A stretch of 64,000 nt of DNA, from positions 434,001-498,000 of the forward strand of contig NZ_AP022616.1 of NCBI RefSeq assembly GCF_010731115.1, written 5' to 3'. Shown here one piece after another: positions 50,650 to 62,468 of this stretch. The notes under the pieces were generated by a model. It had not been told where the DNA came from and made no database searches. It worked only from the letters and a program-made list of their open reading frames with translations. Numbering within the stretch: position 1 is the first letter of the stretch; every line of letters begins with the position of its first letter. The DNA comes from Mycolicibacterium phocaicum. GTDB lineage: Bacteria > Actinomycetota > Actinomycetes > Mycobacteriales > Mycobacteriaceae. A program made the position numbers and the translations under genes.

Positions 50650-50925
50650 ATGTACCTGCACATCGACCCCACCGAGGTCCCACCAGCAGTCGAGGTGCGG
50701 GAACCGGATGACTTCACGGCCTTCAAGGTGGTCGTCGAGGTGCCCGAGCACGCCTGGATCGTGCCCGACGTACTGACCGCCCTGGCCGGCCGCGGTGACG
50801 ACGACGAGTGGCGGCAGAATCTGGCCGGGATGCTGGCATATGCCGCGAGCAAGGGCTGGTGTGACGACGCCGGACGGGTCCGGGCGCACGTCGAGGTGAC
50901 TAGCGCAGCACCGCACCGGGATTGA
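50650..50925 (+). CDS. Hypothetical protein
   Basis: A 91-residue acidic protein, MYLHIDPTEVPPAVEVREP..., with regular alternation (FKVVVEVPEHAWIVPDVLTALAG, WRQNLAGMLAYAASKGWCDDAGRVRAHVEV) and one cysteine. AAAGGAG lies 7 bases ahead of ATG 50650. I do not recognise the family. It overlaps the end of the convergent FAD oxidase by 26 bases and is divergent from the 50067 gene. Confidence 0.65.
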   Translation: MYLHIDPTEVPPAVEVREPDDFTAFKVVVEVPEHAWIVPDVLTALAGRGDDDEWRQNLAGMLAYAASKGWCDDAGRVRAHVEVTSAAPHRD

Positions 50926-52264
50926 GAATGCCCTGTGGATCGAGTGCGTCCTTGATGCGCCGCGTCAGGGCCATGACGTCGTCGCCCAACTGATTGGGCA
51001 GCCAGTCCCGCTTGAGGCGTCCGACGCCGTGCTCGCCGGTGATGGTGCCGCCGAGCCCGATGGCCAGCTCCATGATGCGGGCGAACGCGCGCTCGGCGCG
51101 GTCGGTGGCGTCGGGATCGGTGGGGTCGTACACGATGATCGGATGCGTGTTGCCGTCGCCGGCGTGCGCCACCATGTAGATCTGCACATCGCAGGTGTCG
51201 GCGATGTCCTCGACCCCGGTGACCAACGCCGGCAGTTGCGGGATCGGGACGCCCACGTCCTCGAGCAACAAGCTGCCCAGCTTCTCGACCGCGCCGAACA
51301 TGCCGCGGCGGGCCGCGGTGAACGCGGCTCCCTCGGCCGGATCGTCCGTGGCGAAAACCTCCGTGGCGCCACACTTCTCGCAGTTGCTGACCATGGTCGC
51401 CACTTCCGCCGCGGCGGCTCCCGGCGCATCGGACTGCATCAACAACATGGCCCGGGCGGACCGGTCCAGACCCATCCGCATGTGGTCCTCGGCGGCGTTG
51501 ATGCTCGCGTGGTCCATGAATTCCAGCATCGCCGGCCGGATTTCAGCGGTGATGGCGACCACCGCGTTGGCGGCGTCCGCGACGGAGTCGAACAGGGCCA
51601 CCACGGTCGACGCGGGCGGTTGTGCCGGGATCAACCGCAGCGTGAGCTCCGTGATGACGCCCAGAATGCCCTCGGAACCAATGAACAATTTCGTCAACGC
51701 CAGTCCTGCAACGTCTTTCAGCAGCGGGCCACCGAGCCGTAGCGCCGTGCCGTCGGCCAGCACCACCTCCATGCCGAGCACGTAATCACCGGTGACGCCG
51801 TACTTCACGCAACACAGACCGCCCGCGTTGGTCGCTGCGTTGCCGCCGATCGACGAGATGTCGATGGACGACGGGTCCGGCGGATACCACAGGCCGTGTT
51901 GGGCGGCCGCGCGCTTGACCTCGGTGTTGGTCAGGCCCGGCTGCACCACCGCGGTCCGGGTGGCCGGATCGATCCGGATGTCCCGCATCCGTTCGGTGCT
52001 GAGCACGACGGAACCGTCGACGGCGTCGGCCCCGCCGGACAGGCCCGATCCGGCGCCGCGCGGCACCACGGCGACATGGTGTTCGGCGGCCCACCGCAAA
52101 ACCTGCTGAACGTCAGCGGTACCGGCGGGACGCACCACGGCGACCGGGGTGCCGGCGTGCGGATCGGCTGCCGAATCCCGGCGGTAGCGCTCGATGATGT
52201 CGGAATCGGTGATCAGCGCGCCGTCGGGCAATTCATCGGCGAGACGGTTCAGGGCGGCGTGCAT
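50900..52264 (-). CDS. FAD-binding glycolate/D-lactate oxidase-type protein (GlcD-like)
   Basis: A 454-residue FAD-linked 2-hydroxyacid oxidase/dehydrogenase. The FAD_binding_4 domain shows [28 protein letters not shown] and [22 protein letters not shown]. The C-terminal FAD-oxidase domain has [19 protein letters not shown] (metal ligands) and the closing [17 protein letters not shown]. It oxidises glycolate, D-lactate or a related acid; no GlcE or GlcF subunits are adjacent. Its start is divergent from the kinase gene across 105 bases. Confidence 0.9.
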
Positions 52265-52369: not shown

Positions 52370-54307
52370 GTGTTGCTCACCGAGGGTCAGGTTTTCGCCG
52401 GTTACACCATCCGGCGGAAACTCGGCGCGGGCGGGATGGGCAGTGTGTACCTCGCTTCGCATCCGCGTCTGCCGCGGCTGGACGCCGTGAAGGTGCTGTC
52501 GGCCGAGCTGACGTCGGATCCGGAGTACGGACCGCGGTTCCTGCGCGAAGCGGACCTGGTGTCCACGCTGTCGCATCCCAACATCCTCGGCGTCCACGAC
52601 CGCGGCGAGTGCGACGGCCAGCTCTGGATTTCGATGGACTACGTGGCCGGGACCGATGCCGCACAGCTGCTGCGCGAGCACTATCCCGCCGGCATGCCGC
52701 CCGAGGTGGCGCTCCCCATCATCCATGCCGTGGCCTCGGCGCTGGACCATGCGCACCGGCGGGGGCTGCTGCACCGAGATGTGAAGCCGGCCAACATCTT
52801 GCTGGATGCCGAGACCTCCCGCATCTACCTCGCCGACTTCGGGATCGCCCGGCCCATGAATGACTCGGCGGGGCTCACCGCGACCAACATGGCGGTAGGG
52901 ACGGTCGCGTACGCGGCGCCGGAGCAGCTCCGGGGCGAGGGGATGGACGGCCGCACGGATCAATACGCCTTGGCGTGCACGGCATTCCAGCTCCTCACCG
53001 GGAACCCGCCGTACGCCGACAGCAACCCGGCGGTGGTCATCACCAAGCACGTCACCGCACCGGCGCCGTCGCTGGGGGAGCACCGGCCCGAACTCCGTGG
53101 CCTGGATCCGGTCCTGGCGCGGGCCATGTCGAAGACGCCTGCGGCGCGTTTCGCCAGCTGCGGTGAGTTCGCGCAGGCCCTGCAGCAGCAGTCCCGCCAA
53201 CCAATGCCGATGGCCACCAACGACTTCCGCAATCAGCAGACCATGGCCGCGCCGGCACCCCCACCGTCCACACGGCACGCACCGCAGCCGCTGAACCTGC
53301 CGCCACAGCAGTTCACCTCGCCACCGCCGCGGTCGTCACGGTCCGGGGCGCTCATTGCGGTCCTGGCGGTGGTCGCCCTGTTGGTCGTCGCCGGCGTGGT
53401 GTTCGCCGGGGTGCAACTGTTCGGGGGTGGCGACCACCCGATCGGGACGCCGCCGACGCACACCATGTCGCCGACAGCCGCGGGTACCGGCTTCAGCGGC
53501 AGGTACCGCGCCGAATACGGCCCGGCCACCGATCTCCAGGGCACGGCGATCCCCGGCGGACCCGCGATCACGGGCCAATGGGACGTGCGGTCGTCGTGCG
53601 GCGCCAACGGGTGCATCGCCAACGCGTCGTACACCGGAAAGAGCGCCGTCCCCGTGGTGTCGAACATGACGTTCGACCAGATCTCCGGTGACTGGGTCGC
53701 CGTCGGGACCGGGGCCGTGAAATGCACCGACGCACCGGGCGAGGCGCCGACCGAGGTGTGGGTGGTCTTCACGCTGACCCCCAAGCCCGACGGCACCTTG
53801 GCCGGTGAGACGACGCGCAGCGCCGTCAACGGCTGCAGCAGCGTGAAGCGGACGGTTACCTTCACCCGCACCGGCGACGGCGAGTTGAGCAGCGTGTCCG
53901 ATCCCGCCGGCCTGCCGCCGCGCACCACGTCACCGGCCTCGACACTGCACGGCCGCTACCACGAGAACATCGTGTACGCGGTCGGCGGCTTCGGCCCGGG
54001 GGCGCCGGATCTGGAGGTCCGTACGCAGTGCCTGCGCACGGGAGACCGGTGCATCAGCGCATTCCACGCGATGGACGGTGTGGTCACGCTGATCTTCGCC
54101 GCGGGCAAGTGGACACGTACCGAGGAGGGCACCGTCCCGTGCGCGCTCGGGGGGACCACGCACGTCAAGATCACCGCGGAGTATCCGCTGCCGACCGATC
54201 TCCAGGATCCGATCCCGACGCTGGAGGGTCGAGGTACCAACACGTCGACCGGCGGCGAATGCAAGGGTGGCGATTTCACCGACAAGTTCGTACGCACCGG
54301 GGACTGA
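52370..54307 (+). CDS. Transmembrane Ser/Thr protein kinase (Pkn type)
   Basis: A 645-residue receptor-like kinase. The kinase domain (residues 9-275) is complete: glycine loop GAGGMGSVY at 19-27, Lys41 in AVKVL, catalytic Asp137 in [16 protein letters not shown] at 156-158 and [10 protein letters not shown] in the activation segment. A Pro/Gln-rich linker leads to one membrane helix (about 326-350). The outer 295 residues form two cysteine-containing beta modules ([10 protein letters not shown] ... and [14 protein letters not shown] ...), presumably the sensor. GTG 52370 starts it. The FHA-redox protein begins 97 bases downstream and is an obvious candidate substrate. Confidence 0.92.
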
Positions 54308-54404
54308 CTGCGATTTGCGTTCCGGAAGTGCCGATCGGGCGGCGGACTCGGGCCGGCCGATTTAAGCTGACTGCCAGCGATTTCGACTTCTCGGGGAGCT
54401 GACC

Positions 54405-57400
54405 ATGGCTGAGCCGCCGGTGATCGAGATCCGCGAATGGGGCCGGCCGGCCCGCCGCATGACGCTCAGCAGGCCGGTGCAGTTCGGCCGCGAGTGCGAC
54501 GGCGTCAACCTCGCCGACAGCGAGGTATCCCGCCGCCACCTGCGGCTGGTTCCGACGCCCACGGCGCTGTCGGTCGTCGACCTCGGCAGCAGCAACGGCA
54601 GTACCGTCAATGGCGTGCCGCTGACCGGGCGCGGGACCCTGTCGACCGGCGACGTGATCCGCTTGGGACGCACGGAGATTCTCGTCGTACACGCTCCGAA
54701 GCTGTCGAGCGCGGAGCAGGCGCCGGTCGCCGTGGCCGCCCACGACCCCACGCGGACGATGCAGGTGATCAAGCTCGTCGACGTCCCGGTCCCGGCGGCC
54801 GCGGCGGCGGAGGTCCGGCCGGTGGGACTGCGGCTGGCCGAGCGGGCGCTGGGCATCGACCCGACCGGAACCCGCGACCTGTTCCCGCCGTACACCGAAC
54901 TGCCGCACAAGGTTTCGCGTCAGGCATGGCTCGCGATCCGGGTCGGCAGCGTGCTGGTGTATCTCGCGGTGGTAGTGACGCTGTTCGTCCGGCCGGCCGC
55001 GGGACTGTTCGTCTTCTTCCGGGTGATCGTGCCGCTGTGGCCGGCGTTGTTCTTCATCGCGCCCGGTGTGTGGCGCAACATCTGCCCGCTGTCGGCATCG
55101 AATCAGCTGCCTCGGGTCGCCGGGTTCAGCCGGGCCGCCACCGCCCCCGGTTGGTGGACGCGCAACAGCTTCCTGATTGCCGCGGCGCTGTTCTTCAGCA
55201 TCGCGGGCGCGCGGCTGATCGGCCTGGACCGCAGCGGACCGGCCACGGGCGTGGTGCTGGCCGTGATCATCGCCTCGGCATTCGCCGGCGGGTTCCTGCT
55301 CAAAGGCAAGAGCGGCTGGTGCTCCAGCATCTGCCCGCTGCTGCCGCTGCAACGCACGTACGGGCAGACGCCGTACGTCACGTCGCCGAACAGTCACTGT
55401 GAGTCCTGCCTGGGCTGTGCGAAGAACTGCTACGACTTCAAACCCCGGGCGGCCTGGCAGGCCGACATGGCGGATCCCGAGCCGCGGTGGAGTGCGCCAC
55501 GCGTGTTGTTCGCCGCCGCGCTACCGGGATTCATCATCGGCTTCTTCACCGTGCATGCCCAGCAGGGCGGTATGGCGACCGAAAAGTACGGTGCGCTGGC
55601 GCTTTTCGTGTTGGTCAGCGTCGGGCTGTGCTATGTGGTGCAGGCCGTCACGCCGCTGAGCCAGGCGATGGTGACGGCGATCTTCGCTGCGGTGGCCATC
55701 AACGCGTACTACTGGTTCTCCGGTCCCATCATCGCCGACTCGGTGCGGCAGATCACCGGTGTCGACGCGCCCTGGCTGCGGTGGCCCATCATCGTGGCGA
55801 TCGCGCTGCTGACGCTGTGGTGGCTGGCCCGAACCCGGGTCAGCGAGCTGCAGTTCGCGTATGTCACCGGCGCGCGGCCCGAACCGGTGCTGCTGAACCA
55901 GCCGAAAGTGCCGGCGCGCACCGACGCCGCCGGCGGCGAAACCGCAGCTGTGCGAGTGCGTTTCGAATCTGATGCCGAACCCGTCGGGGCCGACATCGGG
56001 ATGAGTCTGCTCGACGTCGCGGAAAGCAGTGGACAGCCGATCGAGGCGGGCTGTCGAATGGGCGTATGTGGTGCCGACCCCGTGTCGATTGTCGCCGGGA
56101 TGAGCTGCCTGTCGCCGGCGGAAGCCGACGAACTCAAGACGCTGAACCGGCTGGGCCTGGGCAAGTCCAGCAGGATGGCGTGCTGTGCCCGGATCCAGGG
56201 CGGCCATGATGGCGGTGTCACGGTGTCGCTGACGCCCGAACGCGCCGACACCGCGGCGAGCAGGCCCGTCAGCTACGACCGCTCGATCGTCAGCATCGTG
56301 GTGGTCGGCAACGGCATCGCGGGGGTGACGGCCGCGGACTTCCTGCGCCGGGGCCACCCCGACTGCGAAATCCATCTGGTGGGAGCCGAGCCACACGGTC
56401 TGTACAACCGCATGGGCATCTCGCGACTGGTGTACGGCCGGTCGGCGATGCAGGGCCTGTACCTGCTGCCCGAGCAGTGGTACGACGACCACGGTGTCAC
56501 CGCCTGGCTGAACACGTGGGCATCCGGCATCCATCTGCGTTCGCGCGTGGTGCGCCTCGGCACCGGCGAGACACTGCCGTACGACAGGCTGATCCTGGCG
56601 ATGGGGTCCAGCGCCGCGGTACCCGACATTCCGGGCCTGAACCGGCCCGGAAGCGTCGTGCTGCGTTCGGCTGCCGACGCCATGCGAATCCGCGCGTACG
56701 TGCAGGAACGGCGGGCCCGGCACGCGGTGGTGGCCGGTGGTGGCCTGCTGGGGCTCGAGGCGGCGTACTGCCTGCACCAACTCGGCCTGCAAGTGACTAT
56801 GCTGGAACGCGGCACGCGGCTGCTGAGCAAGCAGATCGACGCGCGCTGCTCGCAACTCGTGGCCGAGCATTTCGCCCGCGCCGGCATCACCATCGCCCAC
56901 AAGGCGGAGACGGCGGAAGTGCGCGGCGACCCCGCCGTCACCGGCGTGCGGTTCAAGGACGGCCGAATTTTGTCGTGCGAGCTGTTCCTGGCCGCCACCG
57001 GCATCCGGCCCAACATCGAATTGGCAAGGGACGCAGGCCTGCCCGTCGGCAAAGGGGTGCTGGTCGACGACCGGATGCAGACCCGGGTGCCCGGCGTCTA
57101 CGCCGCCGGTGATGTCGCCGAGCACGGCGGCCGCGTGCTGGGCCTGTGGCCGGTGGCGACCGAACAGGCCGAGGCGGCGGCGGTCAATGCGCTGGGCGGC
57201 GACCGGACCGTGCCGGTCGAGACGCCGCCGACCATTCTCAAAGGTGTTGAACTGGAACTCTTTTCGATCGGCCCGGTGGACCCCGGCGCGGGCGACGAGG
57301 TGGTCGTCATCGACCGGCCGACGGTGCCGTCCTACCGCAGGCTGGTGGTATCGCGCGGCCGTGCGGTCGGGGCGACGGTGCTCGGGCACCACCCCGCCGA

Positions 57401-57518
57401 CCTCGCGGCCGCCCAGAAAGCGGTCCGCGAGCAGCGCCGCGTCGGACCGGTGGCAATGGGGGTGCTACGGACGGGCAACTGGGACATTCTGTCCGATGCC
57501 GACAGACTCGCCTACTGA
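54405..57518 (+). CDS. FHA domain / polyferredoxin-like membrane module / [2Fe-2S] / FAD-NAD(P)H reductase fusion
   Basis: A 1037-residue multidomain redox protein. Order: FHA domain (about 20-95; FGRECDGVNLADSEVSRRHL, DLGSSNGSTVNG); membrane helices from about 174 to 475, interrupted by a cysteine region with CSSIC (306-310) and CESCLGCAKNC (332-342), like NapH/NosR-type electron-transfer proteins; a plant-type [2Fe-2S] domain with GCRMGVCGAD (550, 555), Cys568 and ACC (593-594), the usual third Cys position being Asp558; and a NirB/rubredoxin-reductase-like flavoprotein from 628 (VVVGNGIAGVTAADFL for FAD, VVAGGGLLGLEAAYCL for NAD(P)H). It likely moves electrons from NAD(P)H to a membrane acceptor under phospho-threonine control from the adjacent kinase. 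It overlaps the convergent FHA gene by 7 bases. Confidence 0.88.
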   Translation: MAEPPVIEIREWGRPARRMTLSRPVQFGRECDGVNLADSEVSRRHLRLVPTPTALSVVDLGSSNGSTVNGVPLTGRGTLSTGDVIRLGRTEILVVHAPKLSSAEQAPVAVAAHDPTRTMQVIKLVDVPVPAAAAAEVRPVGLRLAERALGIDPTGTRDLFPPYTELPHKVSRQAWLAIRVGSVLVYLAVVVTLFVRPAAGLFVFFRVIVPLWPALFFIAPGVWRNICPLSASNQLPRVAGFSRAATAPGWWTRNSFLIAAALFFSIAGARLIGLDRSGPATGVVLAVIIASAFAGGFLLKGKSGWCSSICPLLPLQRTYGQTPYVTSPNSHCESCLGCAKNCYDFKPRAAWQADMADPEPRWSAPRVLFAAALPGFIIGFFTVHAQQGGMATEKYGALALFVLVSVGLCYVVQAVTPLSQAMVTAIFAAVAINAYYWFSGPIIADSVRQITGVDAPWLRWPIIVAIALLTLWWLARTRVSELQFAYVTGARPEPVLLNQPKVPARTDAAGGETAAVRVRFESDAEPVGADIGMSLLDVAESSGQPIEAGCRMGVCGADPVSIVAGMSCLSPAEADELKTLNRLGLGKSSRMACCARIQGGHDGGVTVSLTPERADTAASRPVSYDRSIVSIVVVGNGIAGVTAADFLRRGHPDCEIHLVGAEPHGLYNRMGISRLVYGRSAMQGLYLLPEQWYDDHGVTAWLNTWASGIHLRSRVVRLGTGETLPYDRLILAMGSSAAVPDIPGLNRPGSVVLRSAADAMRIRAYVQERRARHAVVAGGGLLGLEAAYCLHQLGLQVTMLERGTRLLSKQIDARCSQLVAEHFARAGITIAHKAETAEVRGDPAVTGVRFKDGRILSCELFLAATGIRPNIELARDAGLPVGKGVLVDDRMQTRVPGVYAAGDVAEHGGRVLGLWPVATEQAEAAAVNALGGDRTVPVETPPTILKGVELELFSIGPVDPGAGDEVVVIDRPTVPSYRRLVVSRGRAVGATVLGHHPADLAAAQKAVREQRRVGPVAMGVLRTGNWDILSDADRLAY

Positions 57519-58366
57519 CTCTGGGCCGGCACCTGATAGGTGAGAATCTTCTGGCCGATCCGCAGGTAGCAGCCAGGTAGCAGCTCGACGGGCTGGTCGC
57601 CGATCTGGGTCCAGGTCTGGTCTCCGGGCGCCGCGATGTGGGTCCCACCGACGGTTTGTGCGTCGCGGACCAGGACCATGCCGCCGCTGACGGTCACATA
57701 GGCGTGGACGCGCGACACCTGTGGGTCGTCGGGCAGGCTGATCGGCGATGCCGCACCGCTCACGACCGCGGGATCGATCATCGGGTTGCGGCCGATGATG
57801 TACGGACGGTCCAACGGGTACCCGGCCCCGTCGTCGGCGGTCAGGATTCCGGTGACCGGACGGGCGCGGGTTGTCGCGGGGGCCGGCTGAGGTGCTTGCT
57901 GCGCGGCGGACCGCGCCAGTGCCGACTGCAGTACGAAGCCGCCGCCGGGCACCACGCCGGCGACCAGATCGGTGTCCGCGCAGGGCACGAATGTCGTTGC
58001 GGCGCCGCAGATCGTGATCCGGTCGAACCAGGGCGGGACAGGTTCGTCGACGAGCGGCCGGCCACCGCTGCCCAGACGCCGCTGACCGCCGCCCGCCTCG
58101 ACGTCGGCGATCACCTCGCCCCGCACGATCAGGTGCAGACAGTCGCCGGCCGGTATCAGCGCGCCGAACGCCGGCACGGTGTCGGTTTCCGGACCATGGG
58201 CGAGTCCGGCGAGCGCCTGGGGCAATGCCGGCGGCGCGACGGTGGTGAGCAGCTGCAACAGCGGGCGGGCACGGGCGCCGTCGGGGAGGTATGTCAGCAC
58301 ATCGCCGAATCGGGCGACCAGACCTTCGCCGCGGCCGATGGCCACGTAGTGCTGCTTCTGTTCCAC
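57512..58366 (-). CDS. FHA-domain protein
   Basis: A 284-residue protein. The C-terminal 100 residues are an FHA domain: RPYIIGRNPMIDP, SLPDDPQVSRVHAYVTVSGG, LVRDAQTVGGTHIAAPGD and LLPGCYLRIGQKILTY, with the phosphothreonine-binding Arg and Ser. The N-terminal part (VAIGRGEGLVARFGDVLTYL, AFGALIPAGDCLHLIVRGEVIADVE, WFDRITICGA) is a beta-rich domain seen with FHA in other mycobacterial proteins, of unknown role. GTG 58366 is preferred over ATG 58471, which adds 35 low-complexity residues. It may be a second reader of the neighbouring kinase. Confidence 0.8.
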   Translation of the reverse strand: MEQKQHYVAIGRGEGLVARFGDVLTYLPDGARARPLLQLLTTVAPPALPQALAGLAHGPETDTVPAFGALIPAGDCLHLIVRGEVIADVEAGGGQRRLGSGGRPLVDEPVPPWFDRITICGAATTFVPCADTDLVAGVVPGGGFVLQSALARSAAQQAPQPAPATTRARPVTGILTADDGAGYPLDRPYIIGRNPMIDPAVVSGAASPISLPDDPQVSRVHAYVTVSGGMVLVRDAQTVGGTHIAAPGDQTWTQIGDQPVELLPGCYLRIGQKILTYQVPAQSQ

Positions 58367-58738
58367 CTTGTCGCCGCCTCGGTAGGTTGCCGCAGATGCT
58401 GATGATAAGTCAGCGTCCGACCCCGTGCCATGCGGCGATTCACCTGCGGCGGCGGGGCCCGTGCCCGTCATCAGGTCCCGGCAGTGTCCCTGAGTTCAAT
58501 CACGGTGGCGATCTGCCGTCGGTTACTGAACTCAGGGACCTCGGACGGCCGCAGAACGTACCTGGCTTCAATTGCGGTGGCCGTGAGCACCTCGTCGTTG
58601 ACTCTTGGGATCACCTTCGTCTTCCGGGTAGCTGCAAGGGCACAACGGGTGCCTGCAGGAGCGACAAACATGCAGGTCAGGCCCGACGATGGAAGCACTC
58701 CGCAATACCGGCCACCAACCTGAAAGGAAGCGCCGAAC
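58367..58738. other. Intergenic region with inverted and direct repeats
   Basis: The 372 bases between the FHA gene and the small secreted gene hold a 13-bp inverted repeat (58486-58498 with 58527-58539) and two copies of TTCAATNNCGGTGGC (58495-58509 and 58567-58581, 13 of 15 identical) 72 bases apart. No gene start is supported on either strand. Confidence 0.55.
58486..58539. repeat. 13-bp perfect inverted repeat
   Basis: GTCCCTGAGTTCA and TGAACTCAGGGAC flank a 28-base loop. It lies about 200 bases upstream of the small secreted gene at 58739 and 120 bases from the FHA gene start. Confidence 0.7.
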
Positions 58739-59003: not shown

Positions 59004-59369
59004 TCAGGCGATGAGGGCGCGGATCGCGTCGCCCGACAGATCGAGTTTCGGCAGGAACCGCGGTGGTGAGTCACTCAGGTCGGCGACGGGCAGGTCGGTG
59101 AAGGTCGAGGTCAGGATGGCCATCACGGTGGCGGTGCCGGCGTGGGAGTTCAGTTGCGCGACAAGGTCGAAGCCGCTCTCCTCACCGAGGTTCACGTCGA
59201 CCAGCGCGATGTCCGGCCGGAGCCGTTCGACGGTGTGCAGCCCGTCCGAGATGGATTGTGCGGTGCCGACGACGTCGATGCCGCCCTGCCGCAGGAGTGC
59301 CGTCGCCGCGGCCAGGTAGTCGGCGTTGTCGTCGACGATGACGCATCGCAGAGATTGGCGCTTCGTCAT
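59004..59369 (-). CDS. Receiver-only response regulator
   Basis: A 121-residue CheY-like receiver with no output domain. VDDN is at 13-15, the phospho-acceptor is Asp58 in IALVDVNLGEESG, the switch Thr/Ser is in AILTSTF and Lys108 in FLPKLDLSG. ATG 59369 begins the fold. It lies 41 bases downstream of the histidine kinase in the same direction, so it is its probable phosphate acceptor, acting by protein contact or as a phosphate sink for the NarL-type regulator at 61797. Confidence 0.82.
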   Translation of the reverse strand: MTKRQSLRCVIVDDNADYLAAATALLRQGGIDVVGTAQSISDGLHTVERLRPDIALVDVNLGEESGFDLVAQLNSHAGTATVMAILTSTFTDLPVADLSDSPPRFLPKLDLSGDAIRALIA

Positions 59370-59410
59370 GACTGCATTGTCTCCCGGGTGATGCCGTCCG
59401 GGCATTCCTG

Positions 59411-60964
59411 CTAGCTGCCATCTGTGCCGGCGACGGCGGTCTCTTTCAGCGGCATCTCCGCGACGAGCGTGGTCCCGACACCGGCGGTGCTGGACAGGCG
59501 CAGCTTGCCGCCGAGGGCGGCCACCCGGTCCTCCAGACCGAGCAGGCCGCTACCGGCGTCGAGGGCCGCGCCGCCGACCCCGTCGTCGGTGACCGTGATG
59601 CGCAACGATGTCGCGTCGGTGTCGACGTGCACGGTGACCACCGACGCCTGCGCGTGCTTGGCGGCATTGGTGAGGGCTTCGGCGACGGTGTAGTAGGCGG
59701 CGATCTCGACGGCCTGCGGCAGCCGCGCCGGGACGTCGACGTCGACCTCGACGGGCAGTGGCGCGCGCCGGCCGAGGTCGCGCAGTGCCGGACGCAGGCC
59801 GCCGCGCGACAGGATCGCGGGATGCACCCCGTGCGCGAGCTCGCGCAGCTCGTCGCTGGCGGTGCGCAGCCCGTCGCCGATGCCGGCGATACGGGATTGC
59901 AGCTCGGCTGGATCATCCGGGATCGCCATCTGGAGGGTGCGCACCTGAAGGGCCAGCGTGACGAGCCGCTGTTGGGCGCCGTCATGCAGGTCGCGTTCGA
60001 TGCCGCGCCGCGCGTTGTCGGAAGCGGTGACGATACGGGCCCGGGATGCGACGAGCTCGGCGCGAGCGTGCGCGTTCGCGATGGCCGTGCCGATGAGTTC
60101 GGCGAAGTCCTTCAGGCAGTCTTCGGTGTCGGCGGGGAGCGCGTCCGGACCGGATGTGCCGACAATCATTGCGCCCCAGAGCTGTCCGTCGACCGTGATG
60201 GGTACGCCGACGCACGCCTGTAGCCCGAGATCACGGACGAGTGCCGCCGTCGAACCGCCGGCGTCGTCGTGGGTGTCCTTGCGCGCGGGGCTGCCGGTCG
60301 AACGCACCATCGCGATGACGTCGTCGCCGTCGACGGGGAATGTGGTCCCGACGGCGATCGTGGTGAGTCCCGGTTCGTCGTGTGCGGCAACAAGAGTCGC
60401 GGTGCGACCCGACTCGTACCGGACGAGCCCGGCGTTGCGGACATGCAGCACCGCGGCGACTTCGTCGGCCACACCCGACAGGACGTCGGACGGCGACCTG
60501 CCTTCGGCGATCTGGGTCGCGACCCGTCGCAGTGCGCCCTGTTGGTCGGCGAGTTCGCGCACGCGCTCGGTGGCCGCGGTGGCGACCTGCCAGCTCTGGT
60601 GCGCGTCACGGGCACGGGTACGCAGTTGCCAGCCAAGGACATTCGCGAGCCCGGCGATGGGCAGGAACACCGACAGCGTGAGAACGTCGATCGGCTTGAG
60701 GGGCAGGAGCGGGCCGCCGTCCAGATGCACCTGCAGGTAGGCGACGGCACTGGCGACAGTGGTGAGCAGTGACAGACCGAGACCCCAGCCCGCGCTCATG
60801 ATCAGCACGCCGAACATGAAGACGATGGCGTAGGTGCTGTGCGGCGGCGGGTCTCGCAGTAGCCGAACCACCCCGACCTCGCCGGCGATCAGGCCGGCGG
60901 CGACCAGCAGCCCGATGTACCACGGCGGGGTGGAGACAGCCGGATTCCATCGTGCCGGATTCAT
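59411..60964 (-). CDS. Membrane sensor histidine kinase (GAF, HisKA_3)
   Basis: A 517-residue NarX-type kinase. Residues 15-112 hold about four membrane helices (DUF4118-like), 140-305 a GAF domain, and the DHp acceptor is His327 in RRGIERDLHDGAQQRL. The ATPase has TVAEALTNAAKHAQAS (N box), DDGVGGAALDAGSGLLGLEDRV and GTTLVAEMPL. The cue is not apparent from the sequence. It is followed by a receiver-only regulator and lies near the LuxR-type regulator at 61797, which is the likely DNA-binding partner. Confidence 0.9.
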   Translation of the reverse strand: MNPARWNPAVSTPPWYIGLLVAAGLIAGEVGVVRLLRDPPPHSTYAIVFMFGVLIMSAGWGLGLSLLTTVASAVAYLQVHLDGGPLLPLKPIDVLTLSVFLPIAGLANVLGWQLRTRARDAHQSWQVATAATERVRELADQQGALRRVATQIAEGRSPSDVLSGVADEVAAVLHVRNAGLVRYESGRTATLVAAHDEPGLTTIAVGTTFPVDGDDVIAMVRSTGSPARKDTHDDAGGSTAALVRDLGLQACVGVPITVDGQLWGAMIVGTSGPDALPADTEDCLKDFAELIGTAIANAHARAELVASRARIVTASDNARRGIERDLHDGAQQRLVTLALQVRTLQMAIPDDPAELQSRIAGIGDGLRTASDELRELAHGVHPAILSRGGLRPALRDLGRRAPLPVEVDVDVPARLPQAVEIAAYYTVAEALTNAAKHAQASVVTVHVDTDATSLRITVTDDGVGGAALDAGSGLLGLEDRVAALGGKLRLSSTAGVGTTLVAEMPLKETAVAGTDGS

Positions 60965-61049
60965 CGGCCGCCTCCCGCCTGGTCACCTGGTTCGGTCATC
61001 GAACCCTAACCGCGGTCGGGACCGCGCCGGCGGCCAGCTGACGGTCGTG

Positions 61050-61241
61050 TCAGAACGACTGGTCGATGTGGCCTGCCGGGGCGTTCGAGTTGTGCTCGCC
61101 GTTCTGGTACTGGCTGTAGGAATCGGTGCCGGACGGGACGGTCGGGTTGGTGTCCGCGGCGGCGACAGGCGCCACCACGAGTGCCCCGCCGACCGCGGCG
61201 ATGGACAACCACACGGTGATGCGCTTGAGGGAGTTCTTCAT
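61050..61241 (-). CDS. Small secreted protein
   Basis: A 63-residue exported protein: signal sequence MKNSLKRITVWLSIAAVG..., APVAAA cleavage near residue 28, and a mature part of 35 residues rich in Asn, Gln, Ser and Tyr (TNPTVPSGTDSYSQYQNGEHN) ending HIDQSF. A GGAG-type site is not strong. No cysteine. It is one of three tiny secreted products in this 3-kb stretch. Function unknown; possibly an envelope peptide linked to the histidine kinase upstream. Confidence 0.65.
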   Translation of the reverse strand: MKNSLKRITVWLSIAAVGGALVVAPVAAADTNPTVPSGTDSYSQYQNGEHNSNAPAGHIDQSF

Positions 61242-61291
61242 GATCGGGGCTCGCTTTCGGTCGGACGGGAGGGCGGGAAGTGGGGGTCAGG

Positions 61292-61525
61292 TCAGTGGTT
61301 CCGGAACAGCAGGAAGCCGTAGTCGCCGCCGAACGGCTGCTGCAGCTGGCCGGCTTCCTGCGCCGCCGGGCCGGGTGTCGCCACGATCTGGGCGTTGCCG
61401 TTGCTCTGGGTGACGCTGGATCCGGTGGGCAGGGTGGCGGCCGCCGCGGTCGGGGCGACGACGATGGCCAGGGCCGCCGCCGCGGTCGCGGCCAGCGGGA
61501 TGATCCGGGTGCGGGTGATGTGCAT
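61292..61525 (-). CDS. Small secreted protein
   Basis: A 77-residue exported protein with signal sequence ITRTRIIPLAATAAAALA and a cleavage region APTAAAA near residue 28. The mature part LPTGSSVTQSNGNAQIVATPG ends in GGDYGFLLFRNH. ATG 61525 is the start. It lies 50 bases upstream of the 61050 gene in the same direction, so the two are probably co-transcribed. I do not recognise a family. Confidence 0.65.
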   Translation of the reverse strand: MHITRTRIIPLAATAAAALAIVVAPTAAAATLPTGSSVTQSNGNAQIVATPGPAAQEAGQLQQPFGGDYGFLLFRNH

Positions 61526-61796
61526 TGTCCTCTACCAGCTTTCGTTGTTCTGATGTCTGCGGTTGGCCGTGTCCGGCTGTTCTTCAGATTGCTCCGCCGG
61601 GGCGCCGGTGTCGTCGATGCCAGCGCCCAATTCGGGGGTAGGGCTAGCTGCAATACGCGCCCCCTGCCAGTGGGTCCGGGGCCGATTCACCGGACTGCGG
61701 GCGACGCTGGATGGCGGCCAGGCAAGATGAACGCAATGAGCGGCACGTCCGGCGTCTGACGGCACGGCGGCCAGGGTCGAGACGAACAGGACATAC

Positions 61797-62468
61797 GTGG
61801 ACGCAGTGGGTGCGCGGGAGGGGACGCGGGTTGTCGTCGCCGATGACGACGTGTTGCTTCGGGAAGGTGTGGCGAGCCTGCTGACCGGCGCGGGTTTCAC
61901 CGTCGTCGGGCGGGCCGGTGACAGCGGCGAGCTGCTCGCGCTGGTCCGGGACACGGTCCCCGACCTGGTGGTGACCGATATCCGGATGCCACCCACGCAC
62001 ACGACCGAGGGCCTGGACGCCGCCAAGGTGATCCGTGGTGAGTTGCCCGACGTCGCGATCCTGGTGCTGTCGGCGCATGTCGACGTCGAGCACGCGATGG
62101 AACTGCTCAGCGGCGGCCAGCGCATCGGCTACCTGCTCAAGAGCCGCGTCATCGACGTGACCGACTTCCTCGAGACGCTGCACCGCATCACGGGTGGCGC
62201 GTCGGTGGTGGACCCTGCCCTGGTGCAGGAACTGTTCGCGGCGCAGCGGCGGGAGGACCCGCTGGCGGTGTTGACCGAGCGCGAACACGAGGTGCTGGCC
62301 CTGATGGCGGAGGGCCGGTCGAACGCCGGCATCGCGCATCAGCTGTGGGTGACCGAAGGCACCGTCGAGAAGCACGTACGCAGCATTCTCAGCAAGCTGA
62401 ACCTGCCCGACACCGGTGAAGATCACCGCCGCGTGCTGGCCGTCATCACCTTCCTGGATTCGCGCTGA
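61797..62468 (+). CDS. NarL/FixJ-type response regulator
   Basis: A 223-residue regulator. The receiver has VVADDDVLLREG, phospho-acceptor Asp61 in LVVTDIRMPPTHT, VLSAHVD and Lys in YLLKSRV. The LuxR helix-turn-helix is LTEREHEVLALMAEGRSNAGIAHQLWVTEGTVEKHVRSILSKLNL. GTG 61797 is the start. It is divergent from the small secreted genes, with the kinase on their far side, so it could control them. The stop overlaps the convergent DUF1361 gene by 23 bases. Confidence 0.9.
   Translation: MDAVGAREGTRVVVADDDVLLREGVASLLTGAGFTVVGRAGDSGELLALVRDTVPDLVVTDIRMPPTHTTEGLDAAKVIRGELPDVAILVLSAHVDVEHAMELLSGGQRIGYLLKSRVIDVTDFLETLHRITGGASVVDPALVQELFAAQRREDPLAVLTEREHEVLALMAEGRSNAGIAHQLWVTEGTVEKHVRSILSKLNLPDTGEDHRRVLAVITFLDSR

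Follow-up and report, generated by a model that had tools for sequence, protein, structure and literature searches.

A putative FHA-bearing NADH-to-membrane redox fusion beside a receptor kinase in Mycolicibacterium phocaicum: a candidate for kinase-controlled electron transfer

Could a bacterial Ser/Thr kinase act on electron flow into the membrane through a phosphothreonine reader built into the electron-transfer protein itself? The question is raised by a locus of Mycolicibacterium phocaicum that lies in a 64,000-nucleotide stretch of contig NZ_AP022616.1 (positions 434,001 to 498,000 of a single-contig genome of 5.85 Mb), referred to here as the window. An earlier note, drawn from the letters of this DNA, had described a transmembrane Ser/Thr kinase, a 1037-residue FHA-redox fusion following it, and a second FHA protein converging on the fusion. 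This description is borne out by the list of open reading frames, in which all three frames are present, and by the Pfam matches.

52370..54307, plus strand: receptor-type Ser/Thr protein kinase, 645 aa (reading frame, Pfam, NCBIfam)
54405..57518, plus strand: fusion of FHA, membrane Fe-S, [2Fe-2S] and FAD/NAD reductase parts, 1037 aa (reading frame, Pfam, alignment, structure model)
57512..58366, minus strand: convergent FHA protein, named fhaR here (reading frame, Pfam)

The kinase stop codon and the start of the fusion are separated by 97 bases, and the 3′ end of the fusion overlaps the convergent gene by 7 bases. The convergent frame extends over 57512-58471 on the minus strand; the start at 58366, which gives a protein of 284 aa, is that found in L001 and L006, two of the Mycolicibacterium/Mycobacterium records (L001-L004, L006, and L027) that are the named nearest relatives of the locus and whose fusions are 87-95% identical to that of the window. 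Because full-length relatives span identities from 97% to about 46% among the matches listed, the fusion is no chance reading. Within the window genome a single match spans the whole protein, the other 19 covering reductase, FHA, or ferredoxin parts only.

The fusion consists, in order, of an FHA domain, a linker modeled at low confidence, a membrane module, a Fer2 domain, and a flavoprotein matching Pyr_redox_2 and Rubredoxin_C. All of the following features lie on the plus strand.

54483..54668: FHA domain, residues 27-88, with G28, R29, S42, H45, and N64 (Pfam, motif)
54750..54752: Thr116 in the disordered linker, H-D-P-T-R, a candidate phosphosite for FHA docking
54918..55868: membrane module, residues 172-488, with 8 predicted membrane helices (structure model)
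55071..55088: W223-R-N-I-C227-P228 motif in a predicted cytoplasmic loop
55320..55334: C306-x3-C310 followed by P311, a NapH/NosR-type motif
55398..55430: C332-x2-C335-x2-C338-x3-C342, presumed [4Fe-4S] ligands
55992..56195: Fer2 [2Fe-2S] domain, residues 530-597, with C550, C555, D558 (at the third ligand place), and C593
56292..57389: FAD/NAD(H) ferredoxin-reductase-type flavoprotein with a Rubredoxin_C tail, residues 630-995

The complete FAD/NAD(P)H reductase recognized in the earlier note stands, with 198.7 bits for Pyr_redox_2, 31.2 for Rubredoxin_C, and a modeled fold like those of toluene dioxygenase reductase and BphA4 (TM-score by target 0.84-0.91). Both of these enzymes feed ferredoxins, and in the fusion the [2Fe-2S] domain stands directly before the flavoprotein, in keeping with a ferredoxin-feeding role. 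E801, which closes the second Rossmann strand, is invariant in an alignment of 94 sequences (93 of 240 listed proteins plus the window protein); an acidic side chain at this place favours NADH over NADPH, and the enzyme would be expected to prefer NADH. A second alignment (A2) comprised 28 pieces. Assignment to NirB nitrite reductase was rejected: that profile scored 248.5 bits against a cut-off of 578, covered residues 631-995 only, and was accompanied by no siroheme reductase Pfam domain.

The [2Fe-2S] domain also stands, in altered form. Fer2 scores above its cut-off of 21 bits, both in the full chain (23.2) and with the domain piece alone (28.6), and the nearest solved relative is PDB 9i2a (profile search, E 3.7e-15). 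The four-cysteine ligand set of plant- and vertebrate-type ferredoxins is not present, however, as the spacing C550-x4-C555-x2-D558...C593 places an aspartate where the third motif cysteine of 9i2a aligns. Residues C550, C555, D558, and C593 are invariant across the 94 sequences; C568 and C594 are not conserved. This conservation suggests that D558 is a cluster ligand; E. coli SdhB offers a known case of a [2Fe-2S] cluster with an Asp ligand.

For the membrane part, which had been described as polyferredoxin-like, the C332-C342 cysteine set is indeed present, but a strict polyferredoxin is ruled out: the module contains one C-x2-C-x2-C-x3-C, one C-x3-C-P, and one W-R-N-x-C-P motif. The Pfam scan gave Fer4_5 a score of 16.7 bits, below its cut-off of 22. 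C227-P, C306-x3-C310-P, and the C332-C342 set are all invariant in the 94-sequence alignment. By its motifs the module is distantly NapH-like, with one clear [4Fe-4S] set. It is not classed as a NapH quinol dehydrogenase subunit, as its first motif has a single cysteine in place of two C-x3-C-P motifs and the NCBIfam NapH profile (cut-off 234 bits) scores 15.4 bits for the window protein (E 0.0075) and 23.1 bits for the relative in L035 (E 3.4e-5). In the eight-helix model, the counts of lysine plus arginine are 4, 4, 6, 0, and 3 on one side and 1, 1, 0, and 0 on the opposite side. The cysteine loops and both chain ends fall on the more positive side, presumed to be cytoplasmic; with this arrangement, an acceptor within the membrane would be expected. 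Searches of the PDB found neither a sequence nor a fold relative of the module, and the proposal that it may reduce a quinone is thus made by analogy with NapH.

Electrons would then pass from NADH to the FAD of the C-terminal flavoprotein, to the fused [2Fe-2S] domain, to the cytoplasmic-face [4Fe-4S] cluster of the NapH-like module, and finally to an acceptor within or next to the membrane, menaquinone being the likeliest. The control input of this chain would be the N-terminal FHA domain. It keeps the residues expected to contact phosphothreonine (G28, R29, S42, H45, and N64; Pfam score 44.2 bits, cut-off 20.7), the list of contact residues following the available text of PMC5549992. The corresponding motif pattern is fitted by 65 of the 66 FHA-bearing representatives, with the serine present in all 65, the histidine in 64, and the asparagine in 63. 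The earlier note had named the lack of such residues as a finding that would count against it; they are present, and the domain is predicted to be a phosphothreonine reader.

The segment that follows, residues 101-134, has pLDDT values below 50 in the structure model and is freely variable in sequence. Within it, a [HYFV]-D-[PAS]-T-[RQSHAY] pattern, represented in the window by H-D-P-T116-R, is kept in 35 of 57 Actinomycetota-type representatives with an N-terminal FHA domain (four Chloroflexota-side rows of that form were set aside). The same D-x-T pattern occurs once in the sequence after the GWC motif, about 750 aa in each of those 57 proteins. In a shuffling test on 57 linkers, from which P0102 was omitted and to which the window protein was added, an acidic residue within three places before a threonine was found in 45 linkers, compared with 27 in shuffles. 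Thr116 is therefore put forward as a GarA-like candidate phosphosite. With a D-x-T pattern conserved in a disordered linker and the precedent of GarA, a self-docking or cross-docking switch would be the most economical model for the linker threonine and the FHA domain.

The kinase that could write such a mark is a recognizable Hanks-type enzyme: Pfam Pkinase scores 143.5 bits (E 1e-41) over residues 12-222, and the VAIK-type lysine, HRDxKxxN, DFG, and APE-type motifs are all in its frame. One membrane helix was judged by eye, and for the ectodomain the NCBIfam model of the Rv2253/PknI dimerization domain gives 38.8 bits (cut-off 35). Fourteen kinase matches were found in the window genome. The convergent FHA protein has a C-terminal FHA domain (27.8 bits, cut-off 20.7) that retains GR and S-R-x-H; its N-terminal domain has no Pfam match.

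From this anatomy we infer the electron path, the acceptor, the phosphosite, and the gating, including the direction of any switch. The receptor kinase would sense something extracellular and phosphorylate threonines, of which Thr116 is the likeliest within the fusion. Binding of phosphothreonine by the FHA domain could then switch or cluster the enzyme. The phosphothreonine might belong to the same chain (the GarA case), to another chain (as suggested for Rv1747), or to the phosphorylated kinase, and the convergent FHA protein could be a second reader of the same signal or its scaffold. The claim of the earlier note that kinase signalling docks or switches electron flow thus draws partial support from the intact FHA residues and from the conservation of the gene trio described below. 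We put the probability that the locus encodes a kinase/FHA-gated NADH-to-membrane electron-transfer unit at about one half.

Two protein searches, each with 8000 scored candidates, were used to assess how widely the redox core occurs; 1542 and 1824 of these candidates matched at E <= 0.001, and the best 120 matches of each search were listed. Judged by sequence, the core forms an uncharacterised family with members in Actinomycetota, Chloroflexota, and Betaproteobacteria, seen with or without an FHA domain in the first two and without one in the third. Among the matches listed, its members are mostly labelled 'FAD-dependent oxidoreductase', 'nitrite reductase (NADH) large subunit', or dienoyl-CoA/sulfur reductase-like enzyme. 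Genome searches at E <= 1e-100 or 1e-150, in which the centre genome is included in the counts, found the core in 5 of 251 genomes of the window's family and 3 of 148 of its genus, 17 of 148 in the genus of the Nocardia locus L014, 2 of 396 in a phylum sample, 3 of 294 in the class of L040, and 1 of 200 in the family of the Variovorax locus L042. Where sampled, the core is sporadic.

In a set of 283 core sequences, in which some proteins are duplicated from two sources (P0212 and L040), placement by motif located the FHA domain at the N-terminus in 154 and at the C-terminus in 6, with 1 unplaced. A tree of 144 of 282 cores that passed length and redundancy filters, made by a quick method with SH-aLRT support only, puts the C-terminal form in one clade (5 rows, support 100) and shows N-terminal FHA domains in 57 of the 59 rows of a large Actinomycetota clade. 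Four more N-terminal rows lie among FHA-less ones in a clade holding a Chloroflexia-named member. Because the domain is N-terminal in some members and C-terminal in others, the core has gained FHA at least twice. Variation also extends to other parts of the protein, with a duplicated [2Fe-2S] domain in the relatives P0131, P0135, and P0163 and, in P0139 and P0140, about 240 extra N-terminal residues rich in hydrophobic stretches (extra membrane helices).

The placement of FHA at either end of the core by lineage argues against one precise allosteric contact, and this bears on an explanation in which the FHA domain acts as a docking or clustering tag alone: phosphorylation would collect the enzyme in membrane patches rich in kinase, a mechanism proposed for Rv1747, and leave electron transfer itself unswitched. 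The disorder of the linker in the model fits such a role, and residues 1-310 of Rv1747 are described, in the accessible part of PMC9312465, as forming condensates more readily once phosphorylated by PknF. Stand-alone cyclic-nucleotide-binding proteins found in the same operon position, however, read more easily as ligand-switched regulators. A tag without switching is a credible but unlikely account.

These proteins emerged from a comparison of neighbouring genes at 50 loci. Forty-three loci were located by searching for exact peptide patterns taken from the window's fusion, and the neighbour counts lean to the window's relatives for this reason; gene calls were made in this analysis, with some genes missed or misplaced. 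The FHA protein was found at 33 of the 50 loci and a cyclic-nucleotide-binding protein at 12; two loci had both and seven had neither, three of the latter (L012, L036, and L043) having a short contig or a core fragment. The FHA protein is thus replaced or joined by a cyclic-nucleotide-binding protein at some loci. The latter belongs to PF00027 in the four that were scanned, is encoded directly upstream of the core in 11 of 12 cases and downstream in one, and keeps the phosphate-binding cassette arginine in 8 of 12 (by eye). In lineages of this kind, the cyclic-nucleotide-binding partner might supply the control or add to it.

Kinase, fusion, and FHA protein occur together in seven Mycolicibacterium-type loci (L001-L004, L006, L027, and the window). 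The kinase is upstream of the fusion and co-directional with it in all seven; in L006 a further gene of 476 aa lies between the two. The trio recurs with the kinase reversed in three Antrihabitans loci and one metagenome-assembled genome (MAG) of the Mycobacteriaceae. By motif scan, a kinase lies within 4 kb of the core at 19 of the 35 loci having 4 kb on both sides and at 3 of 14 with shorter flanks. The chance expectation is 0.7-1.9 of the 35 loci at 2.4-6.8 kinases per Mb (densities across 12 genomes ranged from 0.6 to 6.8 per Mb), figures to which no probability is attached as the loci are related.

A kinase tree with a background of 40 stretches among the kinase matches listed, which included four re-sampled adjacent kinases (L118, L128, L133, and L134) and one stretch that gave no row, separates the core-adjacent kinases into several groups. 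Those of Mycolicibacterium (upstream, same strand) and Antrihabitans (divergent) share a clade of 12 with one other kinase of the window genome; a second clade holds Nocardia, Actinomycetospora, and Desertimonas kinases in three different arrangements, a third the Chloroflexota-side kinases of L040 and L094, and a fourth those of L005 and L091 (the L091 kinase being 5.3 kb away). Core adjacency changes 11 times on this tree, compared with 19.4 times in shuffles, and the core-adjacent kinases are therefore clustered but not of one origin. Upstream of the kinase, L014 (L014:4886-7512) and further Nocardia loci carry two accessory genes for secreted or membrane proteins, one of them with Cys-rich CPDGS repeats. 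A kinase of this type with its two accessory genes also occurs in Antrihabitans stalactiti (L138:8854-12235), with no fusion or FHA protein in the 20-kb stretch, and the Nocardia-type kinase module thus seems to travel on its own.

Several observations weigh against a kinase-gated electron-transfer unit. The earlier expectation that the three genes are kept together holds for the Mycolicibacterium-type, Antrihabitans, and Mycobacteriaceae MAG loci, but 16 of the 35 loci have no kinase within 4 kb, and elsewhere the FHA protein is replaced or joined by a cyclic-nucleotide-binding protein; moreover, the loci are not independent, seven being Mycolicibacterium types. Six Nocardia loci without a nearby kinase keep the fusion and FHA protein (L013, L016, L020, L022, L023, and L092), so that the cognate kinase would be located elsewhere, or the FHA domain would read something else. 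No FHA domain is present in 122 of the 283 core sequences. The linker D-x-T is missing in 22 of the 57 representatives, and a hydrophobic residue at pT+3 is present in just 11 of 57 linkers, compared with 6.3 expected by shuffling. The S-x-N-G asparagine occurs in 1 of 26 readable rows of the FHA protein (L029) and is absent from the window protein. NapH itself, according to the available text of PMC5928378, is proposed to draw electrons from quinol.

A metabolic link of the core is also possible: all seven Mycolicibacterium-type loci and eight Nocardia loci contain an FAD-linked oxidase gene.

Window 50900-52264: FAD-linked oxidase of the glycolate-oxidase type (Pfam); divergent from the kinase, as in the other six Mycolicibacterium-type loci
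L014:18011-19654: FAD-linked oxidase relative, downstream of the FHA protein in the eight Nocardia loci

The core might on these grounds be an ordinary redox partner of an oxygenase, P450, or FAD-linked oxidase pathway, its signalling neighbours being due to chance or lineage hitch-hiking. The reductase does resemble those serving oxygenase and P450 ferredoxins, and L004, L006, and L027 have a P450 gene immediately after the FHA protein, with another near an FHA-less paralogue in L021. But the Nocardia oxidases are about 34% identical to that of the window and occupy a different place in the locus, the L021 P450 is about 30-36% identical to the other P450s, and no P450 was seen at that place in the window. 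A soluble redox partner, furthermore, needs no eight membrane helices, and FHA domains at both ends together with kinases of several clades are not expected by chance. We regard this explanation as very unlikely. The L021 paralogue is a second core copy of Mycobacterium sp. AZCC_0083 (L021:5319-12778), lying beside the P450 and a 971-aa frame resembling LuxR-type ATPase regulators. Just past the FHA protein, at 59004-62468, the window encodes a DUF4118/GAF histidine kinase, a short response regulator frame with no output domain match, and a LuxR-type response regulator, genes also present in L001-L004 and L006.

All three core-positive genomes sampled in the window's genus have the FHA protein, and 6 of 145 core-negative genomes match it, five of them with frames of 1080-1106 aa. 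The sixth, G232 (L136:1157-6047), encodes the FHA protein next to a kinase of the Nocardia type, the accessory membrane protein that goes with it, and a protein resembling FHA-class III cyclases (19.3 bits for Guanylate_cyc, below the cut-off of 21.9); no core was detected in the genome at E <= 1e-100 or on the contig carrying these genes. In two Streptosporangiaceae MAGs (L025 and L026; L026:2203-8397), the core and the FHA protein are separated by such an FHA-class III cyclase, here scoring above the cut-off (23.5 and 24.1 bits), while a cyclic-nucleotide-binding gene stops one base ahead of the core start. By eye, these cyclases lack the purine-specifying lysine that is a usual class III cyclase motif. 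Finally, in L090 (genome G1379; L090:3530-11574), the FHA protein beside the fusion is flanked by a bestrophin-like gene and by a gene for an FHA-FHA-ABC transporter, which has the two FHA domains and the architecture of Rv1747 and is placed between the FHA protein and the core. In these three cases, the same FHA protein appears to be combined with different FHA-borne outputs (redox chain, cyclase, and exporter), which occur in place of one another or jointly.

Signalling genes are the most widespread neighbours of the core, and they could be taken to mean that information flows in reverse: the core would sense the NADH or quinone redox pool and pass its state through FHA contacts to a kinase, cyclase, or other FHA-borne effector. 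The adjacency of the FHA protein to an FHA-cyclase and an FHA-ABC transporter is in keeping with this, as are the L040 and L094 kinases (L040:13153-14850 and L094:16433-18601), which end in DUF6529, a membrane domain where inspection by eye shows two shared His that may, at a guess, bind heme; the two proteins could possibly be redox-sensing kinases. A full NADH reductase, ferredoxin, and membrane Fe-S chain nevertheless exceeds the needs of a sensor, and FHA domains read phosphothreonine and do not write it, making a reversed flow quite improbable.

For the gated electron-transfer unit, the same neighbours suggest a more general formulation, which is possible but less likely than not: a class of signal-controlled redox enzymes in which an NADH-to-membrane chain is placed under phosphothreonine control (through FHA, kinase, and FHA protein), cyclic-nucleotide control (through the cyclic-nucleotide-binding partner and the FHA-linked cyclase), or both (as in L025/L026), the chain being one of several exchangeable FHA-borne outputs (redox chain, nucleotidyl cyclase, and ABC exporter) of a kinase/FHA-protein cassette. 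Bacterial Ser/Thr kinases are, to our knowledge, little known as direct post-translational regulators of respiratory or redox enzymes. If the formulation is correct, bacteria would set electron flow into the membrane directly through second messengers and kinases and not by transcription alone, using a reader domain that forms part of the electron-transfer protein and sits at one or the other terminus depending on lineage. With a candidate phosphosite, a kinase, and a putative second FHA reader named, the idea can be tested with few proteins.

The earlier note knew of no characterised system with this layout. For the redox effector this agrees with a literature search, whose coverage mostly lacked subscription papers, that found no description of a kinase plus FHA-redox fusion system; an operon of a kinase and an FHA-bearing membrane effector is known, however, in M. 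tuberculosis pknF and Rv1747, where the effector is an ABC transporter (PMC3908365, available text). The accessible parts of PMC3908365 and PMC9312465 report that PknF phosphorylates its operon partner. As in that pair, the kinase gene here lies directly upstream of, and adjoins, a gene for an integral membrane effector with FHA and a disordered linker, and phosphorylation of the effector may likewise occur. Rv1747 differs in bearing two FHA domains on an ABC transporter, where the present protein has one FHA domain, an NADH reductase, a [2Fe-2S] domain, and an Fe-S membrane module. PknF-Rv1747 is, by analogy, the nearest experimental precedent for the putative control logic.

GarA and OdhI similarly have an FHA domain beside a flexible segment with a conserved acidic-Thr motif; in GarA, the phosphosite is described as part of a conserved ETTS motif in that segment and as being bound by the protein's own FHA domain (PMC5448819, in the part available). 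GarA is small and soluble, with its phosphosite before the FHA domain, whereas the candidate D-x-T follows the FHA domain of a membrane enzyme. On a plasmid of M. ulcerans, PknQ and MupFHA form a kinase and FHA protein pair that bind each other, without a redox enzyme, and MupFHA is said to take phosphoserine too (PMC4238996, accessible text).

For the membrane part, the nearest precedent by analogy is provided by PceC, NosR, and NapH, which likewise combine a polytopic membrane module with C-x3-C-P and [4Fe-4S] motifs (PMC5928378, available text); the fusion differs in the single cysteine of its first motif, in a fused NAD(H) reductase as driver, and in having no FMN-binding domain matched. 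TodA, BphA4, and the N-terminal part of NirB share the FAD/NADH reductase fold paired with a ferredoxin, which in the fusion is covalently joined, as a [2Fe-2S] domain, to both the reductase and the membrane module.

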